From: a virus
IMG/VR virus record: IMGVR_UViG_3300030102_004225
Span: 4,748-25,937 of that record
DNA: 21,190 bases
Direction: 5' to 3' (one strand)
Shown: in pieces, positions 6,370 to 12,972 of the stretch
Numbering within the stretch: the stretch's first letter is position 1
Layout of the letters: each line of letters starts with the position of its first letter
Translations under genes and position numbers: made by a program
The notes under the pieces: generated by a model
Databases searched by the model: none
The model's input: only the letters and a program-made list of their open reading frames with translations
What the model was told of the DNA's origin: nothing

Positions 6370-6822
6370 ATGGATGAAACAAAATCTACAGAACAAAAAA
6401 GAAAAAACCCTCTGCAAAAACTAAAAGAAAATATTGATGATAAAGAAGAACAACTGGCAATTCTTGGTAATTTTGTTCGTCTTGGAGTTTTGATTTGGAG
6501 TGGATTTATCCTTACTTTAAATTACATAACTATCCCAGGATGGCAGCAAAATAAAATAGATCCAACTTTCATCGCTTCGGTGTTCACTGGAGTTTTGGCT
6601 AGTTATGGCGTAGAGACAGCAAAGAAAAGAGGTGATGGCACTTATAAATCAGAAGACGATAAACCGATGAACAAAAAAGATATTCAAGCAATGCTTCAAG
6701 CTCAATCACAAAACTTTCAAACAATCAGAGTCGAAACACCAATAAAACTTGTACCCGTTGAACCAAAGATTGATCCAATAACTAATAAACCTATCGATCC
6801 ACAAACAGGAAAACTTACATGA
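6370..6822 (+). CDS. Two-helix membrane protein, holin-like
   Basis: A 150-residue membrane protein. After a charged N-terminus (KNPLQKLKENIDDKEEQLAI) come two likely membrane helices, residues 32-53 (FVRLGVLIWSGFILTLNYIT) and 64-82 (PTFIASVFTGVLASYGVET), joined by a short IPGWQQNKID loop. The C-terminal half is hydrophilic and proline-rich. Both ends would lie on the same side of the membrane, as in class II holins, though the long tail is unusual. The sequence has the feel of a conserved cyanophage membrane protein. It is the first gene of a rightward operon and overlaps the next gene's ATG by 4 bases (ATGA). The three following genes encode exported proteins, suggesting joint action at the inner membrane. 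Confidence 0.72.
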   Translation: MDETKSTEQKRKNPLQKLKENIDDKEEQLAILGNFVRLGVLIWSGFILTLNYITIPGWQQNKIDPTFIASVFTGVLASYGVETAKKRGDGTYKSEDDKPMNKKDIQAMLQAQSQNFQTIRVETPIKLVPVEPKIDPITNKPIDPQTGKLT

Positions 6823-7328
6823 AGAAGTTATTAATTCTTCTGCTATTCGCAGCACCAGTAAACGCTGGAGGTATCACGCATAAGATCACAGCAACAGCAC
6901 AAGCTTCTGTTGATGGAAGTTACTCTCATGCAAAACGAATTGGAAGTACATATTCAATGTCCAGTTCGGGCGTGACAGCAGGGACTATGGGGCATTTAGA
7001 CGTTCCAGCATCATCAAATAACTCTCTAACAGGAGTTGCTGCAACGCATGGTTCAGGTTCTTATACCCAGACGCAAGCCGGGGCGGCGACAACTTTTAGT
7101 GAAACATTTATTCAAGGTGATGATGTTCCAAGTGCAACATCTTTGAGTCATGGTGCAGTAGGAAGTCTTCCAATGTTGGGAGATACGATTACATATACTG
7201 GAGGAGATAATACTGGATTAGCCGCAACAATAACATCAGTATCTGGTGGCACAATAGGACTCACCCCAGGTAAAAGCGGCACTAGCGTAACAGGCTCAAT
7301 AACTTCATCTTTATCGATAGGTGATTGA
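6819..7328 (+). CDS. Exported Gly/Ser/Thr-rich protein 1
   Basis: A 169-residue protein with a typical signal peptide, MKKLLILLLFAAPVNA, with cleavage expected after A16 (V-N-A). The mature part begins GGITHKITATAQASVDGSYS and is rich in Gly, Ser and Thr with alternating hydrophobics (SVSGGTIGLTPGKSGTSVTG), so mainly beta structure. It has no cysteine. GITHKI followed by a beta-rich repeat-poor domain resembles an exported cyanophage protein family whose role is unknown to me. Signal peptides are rare on phage virion proteins, so the product may act in the host periplasm or outer membrane. The start overlaps the upstream stop (ATGA) and the stop overlaps the next ATG (TGATG). Confidence 0.75.
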   Translation: MKKLLILLLFAAPVNAGGITHKITATAQASVDGSYSHAKRIGSTYSMSSSGVTAGTMGHLDVPASSNNSLTGVAATHGSGSYTQTQAGAATTFSETFIQGDDVPSATSLSHGAVGSLPMLGDTITYTGGDNTGLAATITSVSGGTIGLTPGKSGTSVTGSITSSLSIGD

Positions 7329-7750
7329 TGCGTTATTTGTTATTAATAGCCTTTATATTCGTTCCAGCACAAGCAGTTCCCGTCATCCCTGGATTCAATT
7401 CTGGTTCGACTACGGCAAGAACAGAAAGCAAACAAAATACTACTGAGTTAATAGAATCGTGGTCATATTCTACAGGCTATGAATATTCTGTAGGCGGTAC
7501 TAATTTAAACATTCAAGGCGATATGTTGCCTAAAACAGTTACTACAGGGAGTCACACAGTTGATGGCGTTACTACTACTCATCATGGGATTGACGTTAAT
7601 ACTAAACCTGTAGTCACAATGCAAACTCAAGGAGCAGCTACAAATCTTCTTGAAAGTTATCACGGACCAGGTTTAAAATCATTTACCCGAATTACGAGAG
7701 ATATTGTTACCGAATCTGTCACAGAAACTATGTCAACATTTACTCAATGA
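7328..7750 (+). CDS. Exported protein 2, unknown
   Basis: A 140-residue protein with signal peptide MRYLLLIAFIFVPAQA, cleavage expected after the A-Q-A. A TTG three bases earlier is in frame, but the ATG at 7328 in a TGATG overlap is the better start. The mature chain starts VPVIPGFNSG and is Thr/Ser-rich with segments such as WSYSTGYEYSVGGTNLNIQG and SFTRITRDIVTESVTETMS, beta-rich with a helical end. No cysteine, lipobox or enzymatic motif is present. It is encoded between two other signal-peptide proteins and is probably part of the same assembly. Confidence 0.72.
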   Translation: MRYLLLIAFIFVPAQAVPVIPGFNSGSTTARTESKQNTTELIESWSYSTGYEYSVGGTNLNIQGDMLPKTVTTGSHTVDGVTTTHHGIDVNTKPVVTMQTQGAATNLLESYHGPGLKSFTRITRDIVTESVTETMSTFTQ

Positions 7751-8463
7751 AGAGGTACTTATTTGCAGCACTATTGTTAACAAATAGTCCTGTAATTGCA
7801 GATACAAACATGACCAATAATCCAGTAAGTAACTCATCTGGCAGTGTATCGAATATTGGCGTGATGAATTATGCGAGTAAGCAATTTACAAATACTTTAT
7901 CATTAAATCAAGTTCAATGCCAAGGTGACACCTTAGTTGTTCAACCTTTTTTGATGGGTAATTATTCTGGAGGTTTGCCAAAAGTTGATAGTTTTCTTGA
8001 GCCAGTTTATTCAACTAAAGATATTAAAGGTGCTACAGATGAGAACGGAAACGAAATAGGAGATGGAGAAGTAGACGATCCAACATTGATTCGTGGGTAT
8101 AGAACAGTTAAACGATTTGAGAAGACTAATTTTGCAATTAGCCCTGGAGTAAGTTTATCTTTTAATGTAAATCTGGATCGGAAGAGCGTGCGAAAGTGCA
8201 GGGAGGGGCAAGTGCATTTAGTAAATCTTTTAAAGGCAAAATATGAAGATGCTAGATTATCTTATGAATTAGGAAGAGCAAAACATTGTGCAGATCTTTT
8301 GAAAAATGGAATAGTAATAAAAGGAAAATATGCAATTCTTTGCCAAGACATTGAGCTAGTCAGCAAACCTAATACTTTAATAGACCATACTCACTCTATT
8401 TCCGAAGATCCCTCTGAGCCTTTCTCCTTTCAGAAAGGGACAGTAACTTCTCCTTCTTCTTGA
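7747..8463 (+). CDS. Exported protein 3 with four cysteines
   Basis: A 238-residue protein with signal peptide MKRYLFAALLLTNSPVIA, cleavage after V-I-A. Residues 36-75 contain NIGVMNYASKQF and VQCQGDTLVVQPFLMG; residues 97-111, TDENGNEIGDGEVDD, are rich in acidic and Gly/Asn residues and could be a calcium-binding loop. The C-terminal part YEDARLSYELGRAKHCADLL followed by IKGKYAILCQDI is a helix with paired cysteines. C58, C151, C181 and C199 could form two disulfides, consistent with export. The pattern CQG..., RxCR, YELxRxxxCxxL, CxDI looks like a conserved cyanophage exported family of unknown function. Its last 68 bases overlap the convergent leftward gene, so the two 3' ends share sequence. 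Confidence 0.78.
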   Translation: MKRYLFAALLLTNSPVIADTNMTNNPVSNSSGSVSNIGVMNYASKQFTNTLSLNQVQCQGDTLVVQPFLMGNYSGGLPKVDSFLEPVYSTKDIKGATDENGNEIGDGEVDDPTLIRGYRTVKRFEKTNFAISPGVSLSFNVNLDRKSVRKCREGQVHLVNLLKAKYEDARLSYELGRAKHCADLLKNGIVIKGKYAILCQDIELVSKPNTLIDHTHSISEDPSEPFSFQKGTVTSPSS

Positions 8464-9202
8464 ATAATTTTTTAGCTAAAGCTTTAGATCTTTTTTTAAC
8501 CTGCTTCTGAATCTGCTTCTGTACGATTTTTATGTAAGGCTGTAACGTACCAACAGCAAGAATACTGGTCACAGCTATCGCACTTGTAGAAACTAATAAT
8601 GGAACAGGAGGTGCATAGTTTCCTGCTATCTCTAACGGGTTAAGTCCTTCCCATACTGTTTCACATTTATTTGTAATTAGATTTCTTTTCCATCCTTTTA
8701 TTCTTGCAAGTCCTCCTTTGCCTAACGAACCAATAGGAGTTTTAGCAAGTGTGTCTAAAGGTGGGCAAGGCAAAACTTCTGCAATAAAATTACCATCAAG
8801 ATTTGGAGTCTTTGGAATTTGATTGGTTACGTTGGTATCGTTTTTCTCGTTGCTTTTTCCATTATCTTTTTTCACTTCCTCTCCTACATTGTTTAAACCT
8901 TTTACTAAATCAGTATTTGGTTTTGGTGGTTCGATATCTGCATAAAAGTCAGGAGCAATATACATAGCAGGAGCAAAATCGCAGACCGTTAAATTGTTTT
9001 CAGGGTCTACGTTAAACATCTCACTACCTGTTCCTGTCTTTTTATCTCTGGCTATAACGCAAGGAAGTTCAATAATTGGAACAAAGCCAAATGGCAAATC
9101 ACCAAAAGTAGTTGGAGGAATTATTTCTGCAGGAGGAATTATTGTTAGTTCTGGTAAATCTTTAACCTCTGGCTCGCTTACAAAAGGAGGATTTAATTCC
9201 AT
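8396..9202 (-). CDS. Proline-rich membrane protein, cyanophage type
   Basis: A 268-residue protein with a proline-rich N-terminal third (IIPPAEIIPPTTFGDLPFGF), four cysteines in motifs LPCVIARD, TVCDF, LPCPPLDTLA and NKCETVW, a membrane helix at about 201-219 (PLLVSTSAIAVTSILAVGTL) and a very basic C-terminal tail from about 224 (KQVKKRSKALAKKLFKKKEK). Order proline-rich, Cys pairs, membrane helix, lysine tail suggests an outside-facing head with a cytoplasmic basic tail, or a virion protein. It resembles a conserved cyanophage structural or membrane protein, function unknown. The ATG stands 5 bases after the hairpin at 9208-9242, with no separate Shine-Dalgarno; a GGGGG in the hairpin's 3' arm could serve. 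The 3' end overlaps exported protein 3 convergently by 68 bases. Confidence 0.75.
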   Translation of the reverse strand: MELNPPFVSEPEVKDLPELTIIPPAEIIPPTTFGDLPFGFVPIIELPCVIARDKKTGTGSEMFNVDPENNLTVCDFAPAMYIAPDFYADIEPPKPNTDLVKGLNNVGEEVKKDNGKSNEKNDTNVTNQIPKTPNLDGNFIAEVLPCPPLDTLAKTPIGSLGKGGLARIKGWKRNLITNKCETVWEGLNPLEIAGNYAPPVPLLVSTSAIAVTSILAVGTLQPYIKIVQKQIQKQVKKRSKALAKKLFKKKEKLLSLSERRKAQRDLRK

Positions 9203-9207
9203 ACAAC

Positions 9208-9242
9208 AAAACCCCCTAGAATGTGTGAGTCTAGGAGGTTTT
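9208..9242 (-). terminator. Hairpin just upstream of the 268-residue gene
   Basis: On the minus strand AAAACCTCCTAGA and TCTAGGGGGTTTT make a 13-base-pair stem with one G-U pair around the 9-base loop CTCACACAT, followed by GTTGT and the ATG of the next gene. On the plus strand the wobble becomes a C-A mismatch, so it suits leftward RNA. The shape is an intrinsic terminator for the region upstream, but the T-run is short and its GGGGG lies where a Shine-Dalgarno would be. It may instead control translation. The loop shares CTCACAC with the core of cyanobacterial sRNA Yfr1, possibly by chance. Confidence 0.6.
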
Positions 9243-9415
9243 GAAGTGACCGATTGTCAGTCAAGGCGTCCAACCGCTTAGGTTTAGGAGTGCTTGGCTG
9301 GTGTGAAAAAATCGCATCTGCCTCGATGTCGCCCAACCGCGAAGGTTAAAGGGTACATAGGACTGTTCCAGAGCATCTAACCTCGCAAGGTTTTGACGGG
9401 TGGATTGAAAATATA
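9243..9415 (-). ncRNA. GC-rich structured stretch, candidate RNA
   Basis: This 173-base gap between two leftward genes is about half G+C by hand count, against clearly AT-rich neighbours. On the minus strand it holds three short hairpins built on AACC...GGTT: AACCTTGCGAGGTT (9392-9379), AACCTTCGCGGTT (9347-9335) and AACCTAAGCGGTT (9284-9272). Each is followed by G/A-rich sequence with a shared GGTTRGRYG start. The hairpin at 9208-9242 lies downstream. A TATATT near 9413-9408 could be a -10. Together they would make a leftward RNA of roughly 200 bases ending at the terminator. No matching known RNA family is recognised; a leader element or a non-RNA repeat are alternatives. Confidence 0.4.
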
Positions 9416-9973
9416 TTAGCAGTCGTTCCATTGACCAGCAATATCGCTCGCAACATTTCCTACTTGTTTTCTAGTTTGTCCAAATACGATGCCTGCCAAT
9501 ACTGGTCCTACGATTGGAACGCTTGCAATAGCTGGTGTTACCTGAACCGAACCAGCATCAGCAATCATCTGTCCATTACTTCTACCCTGTGCCATCTTTT
9601 CGATACATTCAATCTGCTTTTTTGTAAGCTTTCCTCCTTCTCCTTGAGGGTAAACAGCAAACTGAGCAACAGATTGTTTGTGCATATATTTCTTCTTAAC
9701 ACCACCATTAAAAGTAGGTTGAGAATCATCTGTGATTGTGGTTATTAGCTTTGGATCGTGTTGCTTAGAATTAAACATCCACTCCTCTGCACCATCAGGT
9801 TTGGTTTCACTCCTAATTTGAATACTGCTGTAAGGAGTGTTTGCAAGTTTGGCTATGTCTGGGATACCTGAATCTTTACGAGCCAAAAGATTCAAGCTCA
9901 TAAAGTTTGTAACGATTAAACCACTGCCTAGCACTAAAGAAGTTAGGCCGTTAAATGACTTGAATTGAATCAT
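9416..9973 (-). CDS. Membrane protein, cyanophage type, unknown
   Basis: A 185-residue protein with an N-terminal membrane helix at residues 9-30 (GLTSLVLGSGLIVTNFMSLN) and a second hydrophobic region at 142-165 (SVQVTPAIASVPIVGPVLAG). Between them is a soluble domain with an EEWMFNSKQHDPKLITTITD block and a Gly-rich linker. C123 (IECIEK) and the terminal C185 (GQWNDC) are the only cysteines. The motif CIExxAxGRSNG, then VPIVGPVLAG and a C-terminal cysteine looks like a conserved cyanophage protein of unknown role. The ATG overlaps the preceding stop (ATGA). The gene is followed by the GC-rich structured stretch. Confidence 0.74.
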   Translation of the reverse strand: MIQFKSFNGLTSLVLGSGLIVTNFMSLNLLARKDSGIPDIAKLANTPYSSIQIRSETKPDGAEEWMFNSKQHDPKLITTITDDSQPTFNGGVKKKYMHKQSVAQFAVYPQGEGGKLTKKQIECIEKMAQGRSNGQMIADAGSVQVTPAIASVPIVGPVLAGIVFGQTRKQVGNVASDIAGQWNDC

Positions 9974-10173
9974 TTAAAAGGAAGCACAGAGCCAGTTGAT
10001 GATGGAACGCTTGGTATTGATGGCATTGCTCCTTTAACAAGAGAAGGCAATTGCTTTTGCACTTCAATCATTATGAATTCTGTAATTTTGCCACGATTAA
10101 AGAAAGCAAACGTACCACCACCTACTGCTATTACAAGAGCAGCAGTATTGATGTAGGTAAGAATTTTAATCAT
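9970..10173 (-). CDS. Small single-helix membrane protein
   Basis: A 67-residue protein with one membrane helix at residues 4-25 (ILTYINTAALVIAVGGGTFAFF), a lysine/arginine cluster NRGK, then an amphipathic stretch EVQKQLPSLVKGAMPSIPSV and a Ser/Pro-rich tail ending VLPFK. The MIKILTYINTAA... start is a recurring pattern in small cyanophage membrane proteins of unknown function. It starts by ATGA overlap with the coiled-coil peptide upstream and ends by ATGA overlap with the larger membrane protein, so the three are a coupled set. Confidence 0.75.
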   Translation of the reverse strand: MIKILTYINTAALVIAVGGGTFAFFNRGKITEFIMIEVQKQLPSLVKGAMPSIPSVPSSTGSVLPFK

Positions 10174-10316
10174 CCAACCTCATCTGTGTTTGCCTTTACC
10201 AGTTGAATTGTTTTTGCGTCTAGTTTTGCTTGTCCTTCTTTCCATTCAGCAGCTCTTTTTTCTTGATCTTGTTGTAATTGCTTGACTTCTGCTGCAAGGC
10301 TTAAACGATCAGACAT
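10170..10316 (-). CDS. 48-residue coiled-coil peptide
   Basis: A short frame reading MSDRLSLAAEVKQLQQDQEK then RAAEWKEGQAKLDAKTIQLV and a short acidic end. Heptad-like spacing of Leu/Ala/Ile through nearly the whole length predicts a single long helix, likely a coiled coil. The pattern is familiar from cyanophage genomes next to the small membrane protein that follows it here. It is the first gene after a candidate promoter (TATAAT at 10340-10345) and overlaps the next ATG (ATGA). It is below the usual length cut-off but well supported by context. Confidence 0.68.
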   Translation of the reverse strand: MSDRLSLAAEVKQLQQDQEKRAAEWKEGQAKLDAKTIQLVKANTDEVG

Positions 10317-10339
10317 GAAAATAATACAGTAACAAGCAA

Positions 10340-10345
10340 ATTATA
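10340..10345 (-). promoter_or_regulatory. Candidate -10 before the membrane cassette
   Basis: A perfect TATAAT on the minus strand, preceded by GGG, lies 23 bases before the ATG at 10316, the same geometry as the other candidate promoters. No good -35 is visible. Just upstream, CTGGCC / GGTCAG (10378-10362) forms a 6-base-pair hairpin after the fibre gene's stop, without a T-run. Confidence 0.45.
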
Positions 10346-10380
10346 CCCTAATTGTCTATAGCTGACCTTTTCGGCCAGAA

Positions 10381-12972
10381 TTACGCATGGGCATAATAAA
10401 TAAATTCACGACCTGGCCAGTTCGTATCTAAGTAGCTTCCATGAGGCAACGAAAAGCCAGAAGAAGTTAAATCAATCATATCTTCAGTCGTAATTTGAGC
10501 AGCGTTTGTATTTAAAGCTAATCTTTTATCAGCACCCGCAGCAATACCTCTAACAGTGTCAAATACAACCCAATTTCTTGCATGAGAGGAACATTTGATC
10601 ATTACGAATCTAGGTTGGAACCCGCAATCAATAGTGATTGTCGCTTCAGGGTCTGGCCCTGTAAATGATCCCACAGAACTGATGCCGTCAACGCTGGAGA
10701 AGAGCATGGCTATGTATGTAGCATTTTCCTGATTTGTTTCGGTTTGATCCCCTACTCTAAATTTTATTGCTGTTGGGGCTGTTTGATTCCAACAATCATA
10801 CGAAGATTCAGCATCATCAGTGTTTAACTTAAGCCTGTATTGTTCTGGGTTTGTGCCTCCATTAAGACCCTTGTGATATACCATCCAATCCGCACTAGCA
10901 TCTCTTCTCTTCACCCACATCATCTCAGGAACAGCGTTTAAACTATGAAAAATATCTTGTTGTTCGCCTGAATAAACACCACTTCCTGTATAAGTCACCA
11001 CATCACACCCAGCGTGGCGTTTCCACATCCATGCTTGAAAATCAGTGCCAAATCCTTCGTAATCTTGAACACCATCATTAAAAGCGAATGTTGCAGAATT
11101 ATCAGTACCTTCAGAATCGGTTTTATTTGTCCAAAGTTTTTTCTTAGCTATTAATCTTGCGTAAGTACCCCAATCACCTTGCCAACTACCAGTTGCAGTA
11201 GGATCTCTATAAAGGTAGAAGTCTACAGGGAATCCACTTGTGAATCCGGGTGTTGAGTTAGGGTTTCCATTATCCATAGCGAATACATCCGTACCAAGTT
11301 CGGGAAGTTTGCCAACGTATCCATCGCTGCGTCTAATAGCTGTAAACATAAATGTCTGTGTTCCTCCTAGATTTGATATTTTAAAACCTGTAGGAGTTAC
11401 GTCTATAAAATTTGTAGTTGAACCTTCTGCATTGCTTGAATCAGGTCTTAAATATGCATCGAGTCCATCTGAAACTATTCCTCTCATTACGTCAAATATA
11501 AACCAAGCACCACTAGTAGTAATGTTTTTTACCAATACCCATTGCGGTTCAAATCCTACATAAACATCGGCATTACCAGAATCAACTTTAAATGATCCAT
11601 TTTTAATTACGTTTTCCGTACCACTGTCTCCAAAGACAAAACCAGCAGGGTCATCGAATGGGCTATCTGTGCTTGCTGTTGGATTACCATTAGCGGTAAT
11701 AGTTCCAGGGGTTACTGTTGAACCTGTAGTAGATGAGTTATTGCAACATAAAAGTTTAGTGTTAGTTATGTTTGTTAATGGCTCAGTTGGTGGCCTAAAT
11801 GATGAGGTATATACTGCTGTTCCTTTAACTATTCGGAAATTACTGATCCTACCATCATAACTTTGAGAAGCATAAGATCCTTGTCTTTGTCCTATTACTA
11901 AAGGTGCGTCACCATAATTAGTACTATCACTATATGTTCCTTGAGAAATACCATTTATATACATTGTTGTAGTTCCACTACTTCTAACTAATGCGTAATG
12001 AGAAAAAACCCCTTTAGTTGTTGCATTGGTTGCCGTAATTCGTGTTGATCCGTTCACCCAAAATCTAGGTTTTCCATCACTCGAAGAAATGTACCAAACT
12101 ATTCTGTTTGTAGTTCCTGTATCACTCCCATCAGTTCTAAAGTCACAAAAATAAGGAGATCCAGAATAAGAATTTGTTAACGCCCAAAATTCAACGGTAA
12201 AATCACCTGTTCCAAAATTAAAATCACTAGTAGAAGCAATACTTAAATAATCACCATTCCCATCAAACGCAACACTCCTTGCAGTAGCGGCTGTGGACTC
12301 ACCTCCTGCGAATAGGTAGGCTACATAGGTTGCACCGTTTGCACCAGTAGCAGCACCTCCACCAACATAAAAATGCGTAGATGTTGGTTCTGTAGATCCC
12401 CAGACACCAGATCCCGATGCGTTATTCGAATTTAGTTCTAATCTACTGGAAGCTCCTAAACTTCTGTGCAATACCATCCAATCATTCGATGAATCTGTTC
12501 TTTTAACGATAACCATTCCAGGTATGGAAGATAAATTATGAGCAATAGCTTGTGGAGTGTTGCCATTTCCCGTGTAGGTCAGGCACGTAAAGAAAGGTGA
12601 CTTGCGGAAACTCCATGAGACGTAGTCGTGACTAGAACTATTAAATGCTAGGTCAGCACCTGAACCACCAATCGTAAATCCGTTTGAATTAAAACTCGTA
12701 ACACCCTTTGACTCGGAAAAATTTGCGTTAGTGAGGTTTGACGATAATGCTGTTGTCGTTCCTCTTTCTGTGTCAAAAAGAAAATTACCGTAACTTGTTG
12801 TTCTATTCTTTACCCAAACCAAACCACCTTCAGTCGAAAGATCTAAGCTATTATTAACCGTTATACTTGAATCATTTCCTTTATATAAAAACGTGCTAAA
12901 AACATCGTCAATGAATGTCTTCTTAGCAACTGCACCACCTGCACCTAAAAGCATTTGTTGAATAGGACTCAT
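10381..12972 (-). CDS. Tail fibre with LamG-like domain
   Basis: An 863-residue fibre. Residues about 35-225 and 445-860 are built of a recurring beta motif: VxVKxxx...WxxFDxxRG, seen as LVWVKNRTTSYGNFLFDTERG-like copies near 51, 153, 478, 690 and 800, in a pattern typical of cyanophage fibres. Between them, residues about 232-440 form a LamG/concanavalin-like domain: SVAFDGNGDYLSIASTSDFN, GTGDFTVEFWALTN, WVNGST, HYALVRSSGTTTMYINGISQ and the closing GRISNFRIVKGTAVY. LamG folds bind glycans, so this protein probably helps attach to the cell surface. It starts with a strong Shine-Dalgarno and follows the 1405-residue fibre. The short N-terminus IQQMLLGAGGAVAKKTFIDD may be the virion-anchoring part. 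Confidence 0.85.
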   Translation of the reverse strand: MSPIQQMLLGAGGAVAKKTFIDDVFSTFLYKGNDSSITVNNSLDLSTEGGLVWVKNRTTSYGNFLFDTERGTTTALSSNLTNANFSESKGVTSFNSNGFTIGGSGADLAFNSSSHDYVSWSFRKSPFFTCLTYTGNGNTPQAIAHNLSSIPGMVIVKRTDSSNDWMVLHRSLGASSRLELNSNNASGSGVWGSTEPTSTHFYVGGGAATGANGATYVAYLFAGGESTAATARSVAFDGNGDYLSIASTSDFNFGTGDFTVEFWALTNSYSGSPYFCDFRTDGSDTGTTNRIVWYISSSDGKPRFWVNGSTRITATNATTKGVFSHYALVRSSGTTTMYINGISQGTYSDSTNYGDAPLVIGQRQGSYASQSYDGRISNFRIVKGTAVYTSSFRPPTEPLTNITNTKLLCCNNSSTTGSTVTPGTITANGNPTASTDSPFDDPAGFVFGDSGTENVIKNGSFKVDSGNADVYVGFEPQWVLVKNITTSGAWFIFDVMRGIVSDGLDAYLRPDSSNAEGSTTNFIDVTPTGFKISNLGGTQTFMFTAIRRSDGYVGKLPELGTDVFAMDNGNPNSTPGFTSGFPVDFYLYRDPTATGSWQGDWGTYARLIAKKKLWTNKTDSEGTDNSATFAFNDGVQDYEGFGTDFQAWMWKRHAGCDVVTYTGSGVYSGEQQDIFHSLNAVPEMMWVKRRDASADWMVYHKGLNGGTNPEQYRLKLNTDDAESSYDCWNQTAPTAIKFRVGDQTETNQENATYIAMLFSSVDGISSVGSFTGPDPEATITIDCGFQPRFVMIKCSSHARNWVVFDTVRGIAAGADKRLALNTNAAQITTEDMIDLTSSGFSLPHGSYLDTNWPGREFIYYAHA

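Follow-up and report, generated by a model that had tools for sequence, protein, structure and literature searches.

The 213 nucleotides at 9203-9415 of the window (the whole 21,190-nucleotide stretch of viral DNA that was analysed) occupy an insertion slot between two late genes and are not one fixed RNA gene: in homologous contigs the same place is empty, refilled or replaced by cargo. In this uncultured, cyanophage-like virus, the insert is composed of exchangeable palindromic cassettes and shared linkers, closed by a hairpin that resembles an intrinsic terminator. We consider it probable that the stop/start contact of the two genes serves as a docking slot, at which hairpin cassettes, exchanged by recombination, supply an attenuator-like terminator and cover the next ribosome-binding site, the two genes staying coupled through an open frame. 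The features to which we refer are as follows (L numbers denote individual loci).

8396-9202, minus strand: downstream gene of 268 aa, phrog_570, in the position of T4-GC_234 (profile and gene order)
9193-9345, minus strand: stop-free stretch in the slot frame of relatives, ending with TAA 10 nt inside the 268-aa gene
9203-9415, no strand assigned: mosaic insert in the variable slot between the 185-aa and 268-aa genes
9208-9242, minus strand: terminal hairpin (module T1) of 13 bp, loop CTCACACAT, z -5.3, followed by GTTGT
9243-9297, no strand assigned: second cassette, M1 type, with mini-hairpin AACCTAAGCGGTT and CTGACAATCGGTCA, 94-95% identical to copies in L082 and others
9261-9431, minus strand: 56-aa ORF, starting in the slot frame (MERLLIYF) and overlapping the last part of the 185-aa gene
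9284-9272, minus strand: mini-hairpin AACCTAAGCGGTT, followed by GGACGC
9298-9318, no strand assigned: shared linker GATGCGATTTTTTCACACCAG, with a 7-bp hairpin (GGTGTGA/TCGCATC) that pairs on the plus strand only
9319-9350, no strand assigned: W2, the A-like portion of the first cassette, carrying mini-hairpin AACCTTCGCGGTT and resembling module A of L004 and L009 by eye
9347-9335, minus strand: mini-hairpin AACCTTCGCGGTT, followed by GGGCGA
9351-9407, no strand assigned: cassette W1, with mini-hairpin AACCTTGCGAGGTT, of which a copy was found nowhere else
9392-9379, minus strand: mini-hairpin AACCTTGCGAGGTT, followed by AGATGC
9416-9973, minus strand: upstream gene of 185 aa, phrog_605, a relative of T4-GC_219 of cyanomyoviruses

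In isolated Kyanoviridae, the annotated gene order is fiber, GC_218, GC_414 ('plasmid stability'), GC_219 and GC_234, followed by the convergent GC_235, 236 and 237; GC_218 to GC_237 are also present in Syn1. The window has the same arrangement, with a fiber-like gene of 863 aa, a 67-aa phrog_568 protein and the 185-aa and 268-aa genes (8396-12972), then three convergent, rightward genes (6819-8463). On the basis of this gene order, the host is therefore probably a marine picocyanobacterium. The Kyanoviridae-like order occurs despite RusA-like and J-like tail genes, in a virus that is not T4-like in appearance, and a tblastn search of phages with the 268-aa product returned no match. Within a 238-aa ORF, positions 8176-8190 read GATCGGAAGAGCGTG, resembling what we take to be the start of an Illumina adapter; the ORF stays open, and the resemblance may be due to chance.

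We compared 32 loci carrying the 268-aa gene and 80 carrying the 185-aa gene, counting slot states once per distinct flank. Of the distinct loci, 31 have an empty slot, 22 have a short insert (20 distinct sequences, mostly mosaics of 106-213 nt) and 12 carry 580-1749 nt of cargo. Stop/start contact without an insert is also seen in isolated Kyanoviridae: GC_219 and GC_234 overlap by one base in S-MbCM7, S-H38 and Syn1, and S-SCSM1 has a small ORF between them. The cargo proteins were read as mostly 2OG-Fe(II) oxygenases, two of which were tested and matched Pfam 2OG-FeII_Oxy_3 and _5, and other cargo comprises an MT-A70 methyltransferase and, beside a D-type insert, a cyanophage outer-membrane protein. 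Ten loci (L002, L003, L007, L008, L015, L044, L064, L074, L097 and L104) carry one to three genes in the slot, mostly oxygenases of different 2OG-Fe(II) subfamilies, and the methyltransferase, which makes it an auxiliary-gene hotspot. The outer-membrane-barrel gene (Phage_OMP, 3119-3798 of L036) lies behind a D+T1 insert and is followed by its own terminator-like hairpin.

The short inserts share a layout: first comes a cassette of type A, B, C, D or, in the window, W; the linker GATGCGATTTTTTCACACCAG often follows, then a second cassette (M1 or M2) and one of several terminal hairpins. The M2 type can occupy either cassette place. Modules are on average far more alike between phages than the genes around them (A 97%, D 97%, T2 93%), the DNA of the 185-aa gene in the same phages being 75%, 80% and 77% identical, respectively, and the start of the 268-aa gene 62%, 74% and 61%. 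Such an excess may reflect exchange, very strong constraint or both; we infer exchange, with recombination as the probable route by which cassettes would move between phages. Modules also occur outside the slot: L122 has B+M1+terminator, L202 has A with a terminator, and L135 carries D+T2 upstream of a gene resembling a terminase; in L261-L282 and L283, D lies where convergent genes end. A pattern search for the linker in viral contigs was too loose and returned mostly chance hits; among the matches listed after filtering, L143, L184, L202 and L210 looked real. In the window's own first cassette, blastn matched only the end of W2 (from 9320), and an exact search for W2 in viral contigs found none. 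The initial annotation had offered a transferred element as one explanation of the gap, and its absence from many close relatives, the better conservation of its modules than of the flanks and their recurrence elsewhere bear this out. In cultured phages, the comparison with cyanophages suggested at that stage gave no match to the window insert by distant blastn, and the module sets gave short chance matches only; the D pattern and the 185-aa protein were not found in GTDB genomes.

Two arrangements were observed near the D copies. In L261-L264, L267, L275-L279, L282 and L283, D is often enclosed by an AGCAAC...GTTGCT outer stem and follows immediately on the stop codon of the 268-aa homologue, with a T run afterwards in several, and L278 has a second, diverged D copy in tandem. 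Close to D, two phages share a 98-nt element that is 93% identical between them (L277 188-285 and L262 3693-3791), in which an outer stem AGATCGGA...TCCGATCT encloses inner hairpins; the stem end resembles what is presumably the end of an Illumina adapter.

The gap had been singled out as a GC-rich stretch in an AT-rich region with three related mini-hairpins on the minus strand and a 13-bp hairpin 5 bases before an ATG, and all of these features were recovered, although that description omitted a 56-codon ORF starting with ATG (9431-9261, minus strand) that covers most of the gap. The G+C content is 0.479, against 0.373 for the whole window. The three AACC(N5-6)GGTT mini-hairpins exceed chance, for which the mean is 0.04, and none of 3000 dinucleotide shuffles reached three. 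GTTRRRY follows all three of the window's hairpins, and integron attC sites, which carry RYYYAAC ... GTTRRRY boxes in each cassette, were considered as a source; module A has GTTGCAC and D has none, and the idea was rejected. A protein-repeat origin, with the hairpins read as NLxGW, was dropped because relatives show a different frame.

The arms of the terminal hairpin (9242-9230 and 9220-9208, with the loop at 9229-9221) end 5 bases 5' of the start codon (ATG at 9202) and enclose the GGGGG in front of the 268-aa gene, a stretch that reads GGGGG or GGAGG among relatives; the minimum free energy of the hairpin is -19.6 kcal/mol (z -5.3). At least five versions occur on the minus strand among the inserts, always at the same insert end and directly before the next start codon whatever the sequence. 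Across ten aligned versions, 96.9% of cells are paired, three pairs show double changes and all G-U pairs fall on the minus strand. The covariation score (0.294 against 0.245 in shuffles, reached by 6 of 500) is only modestly above the shuffles, and the case for the hairpin thus rests on the survival of the stem through different sequences.

A stable G+C-rich stem followed by a U-rich tract, here TTTTGTTGT, of which the first four T pair with an A run, is the configuration of an intrinsic (Rho-independent) terminator. A promoter and terminator consensus scan of the window listed no terminator here; its rule looks for T after the stem, and part of this T run pairs within it. The terminal hairpin is intrinsic-terminator-like, and termination or attenuation would be its effect. 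Two points count against this: a terminator so close to a start codon would lower the output of the downstream gene, and phages with an empty slot manage without one. Both the terminator and the alternative first put forward, a 5' leader that hides the GGGGG, are plausible, given that the hairpin persists in several different sequences just before the next start codon.

Most inserts also keep one frame open. In 15 of the 20 distinct inserts, the frame that opens with ATGGAACGACTGCTA within the terminal part of the 185-aa gene meets no stop until 10 nt inside the 268-aa gene, and the remaining five frames (two minus, three plus) of those 15 all contain stops. Their seven lengths (106, 127, 169, 172, 190, 193 and 199) are all 1 mod 3. 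Counted module by module, the slot frame is open in 14 of 14 cases, against 10 of 28 other module-frames, with the proviso that neither these counts nor those of the inserts are independent, modules being shared among inserts. The five exceptions are the window, L005/L093, L076, L112 (unrelated sequence) and L075/L116 (stops). Copies outside the slot break the frame, with in-frame stops in L122 and L202 and the phase lost in L135.

The model that we favour puts these elements together on the leftward mRNA, where the last hairpin would act as an attenuator of transcription and cover the GGGGG that precedes the 268-aa start codon. Where no insert is present, the two genes are in contact, and ribosomes finishing the first presumably go on to translate the second; with an insert, the open frame would let ribosomes leave the first gene, cross the hairpin and reach the second start codon. 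Since the insert substitutions show no codon-position bias, the product of the slot ORF would not be what is kept: the slot frame would be a spacer ORF and not a conserved protein, and selection would be for ribosome passage, and so for coupling. Hairpins that hide a ribosome-binding site, with an upstream ORF that is read through them and stops at the next start, are a familiar means of translational coupling. The phage arrangement resembles such systems in having a hairpin over the ribosome-binding region and an upstream ORF through it, but differs in that its spacer ORF, whose function is putative, is built from swappable modules.

A different view of the same cassettes, which we regard as doubtful, is that they form a family of phage-borne, horizontally exchanged elements coded on both strands, with a compact branched RNA (or single-stranded DNA) on one strand and an open frame on the other, and act as plug-in regulatory spacers in an auxiliary-gene slot. 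It draws on module D, a putative three-way junction with an ARTYAA loop. For D, the share of paired cells is 89.9% on the plus strand, opposite to the genes, and 82.5% on the minus strand, the control being the mirrored structure on the other strand. Two pairs can form on the plus strand only, and a third helix carries compensatory changes; variants among the helices include GTTG/CAAC, GCTA/TAGC and GTCA/TGAC, with GCCA/TGGC in L283. None of 500 shuffles reached the plus-strand covariation score, in a control that leaves relatedness in, and independent events are few. Taken together, these observations are suggestive of a D structure on the plus strand. No match to the D model was found in the window.

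A discrete minus-strand small RNA or 5' leader RNA ending in a terminator, possibly acting on host sRNA networks, appears unlikely. It would account for the strong 3' hairpin with its T-rich tail and for the same order of module and terminator outside the slot in L122, L202 and L135, but it would be strange for an open frame to arise as a by-product in most inserts, and the fold apart from the terminal hairpin is no better than chance. Indeed, the z of -3.6 for the entire gap on the minus strand is owed mostly to that hairpin, and 9304-9415 folded alone gives -1.4 (minus) and -0.7 (plus). The Rfam search that had been recommended gave no match at the curated threshold in the window; at E up to 5 in eight related loci, nothing was found at the insert sites, and three weak matches lay elsewhere in the loci. 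ARAGORN found no tRNA or tmRNA. The small RNA of the initial annotation consequently loses ground, as does its proposed interference with Yfr1: the core of that RNA is ACUCCUCACAC, the window loop carries CTCACAC only, and CTCACACAT is one of several interchangeable loops on the same type of stem (TTGCTTACT, CTCGCAAGT and TACTAGT in relatives), so that a Yfr1 or its mimic lacks support.

Selection on a peptide, from a small protein gene (43-74 aa) overlapping both neighbours, seems quite unlikely to us. The frame is open in most inserts and has an ATG or GTG within the last part of the 185-aa gene, but the coding of that gene would dictate this start codon in any case, and cassettes with unrelated peptides swap for one another. 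The products of the slot ORFs had no match in Pfam or PHROG. Variable columns are spread evenly over the codon positions (6, 11 and 9 at positions 1, 2 and 3, a small sample), with no third-position bias in the insert substitutions; the frame is open, and the codon-like substitution that the initial annotation had named as evidence against a structural element was not seen.

That several modules function as plus-strand RNA or single-stranded DNA, antisense to late genes, we hold to be very unlikely. The excess pairing of D, its plus-strand-only pairs and its compensated third helix, another compensated helix in the L283 copy and the linker hairpin, which pairs on that strand only, all point this way. 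Against them stand the small number of independent events, M1 copies some of which pair better on the minus strand, weak folds of single modules (z -1.2 to -1.9) and the lack of a D match in the window.

We give little credence to purely selfish miniature palindromic elements with no role, tolerated at gene ends, whose open frames would be survivorship. The same modules do lie at convergent gene ends and elsewhere, with habits similar to those of the BOX and SPRITE repeats of Streptococcus pneumoniae, which are small and structured (BOX modular with variable modules, SPRITE terminator-like) and favour convergent gene ends and gene 3' ends (PMC3049150). The likeness extends to short (<200 bp) palindromic elements at several sites (the slot, L122, L202, L135 and L261-L283). 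However, the phage modules are exchanged from phage to phage at a single slot, a terminator-like hairpin invariably closes the same end and, unlike BOX, SPRITE or MITE elements, they have neither terminal inverted repeats nor target-site duplications, as judged by eye from the junctions of filled and empty sites, and are not multicopy, the D model finding at most one strong copy per record in records that are often partial. Rickettsia palindromic elements, of about 150 bp, likewise keep the reading frame open where they sit, but are inserted inside genes and extend their proteins (PMC10969869), whereas the phage inserts lie between two genes and their frame is a separate spacer ORF. Because they lack end repeats and target duplications and are not multicopy per record, the phage modules are members of neither group.

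The window's own insert departs from the slot frame. Its length of 213 nt is a multiple of three, whereas the length in relatives is 1 mod 3. It starts out in the slot frame, but beyond about 9345 the homologous frame is displaced by one phase, so that the stop-free stretch at 9193-9345 is out of phase with the 56-aa ORF (TTG at 9336). The frame change may be either a true mutation or an assembly error, and with a broken frame coupling there would need re-initiation or be lost. A -1 slippery site, CCCTTTA, was rejected as a rescue, being in the wrong frame. An assembly artefact, chimera or indel, behind the insert as a whole is hardly credible. In its favour, W1 occurs nowhere else and the frame is one phase off that of relatives; against it, both insert ends match independent contigs, and only the frame change could be an error.

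The docking slot of the favoured model resembles the moron or cargo-gene slots of phages in that extra genes lie between genes adjacent in relatives, and L036 has a cargo gene followed by a terminator-like hairpin; it differs in that the same slot also takes small hairpin cassettes without a recognisable gene. We found no account of such cyanophage cassettes in the literature that we covered, which was incomplete. At this phage gene junction, metabolic genes (oxygenases and a methyltransferase) and hairpin cassettes alternate at one stop/start contact that also exists in isolated cyanomyoviruses, and translation across it seems to be protected. Should this be borne out, the inserts would provide a natural series of variants on how phages can add cargo while adjacent genes stay coupled, along with a collection of structured phage modules that Rfam lacks.
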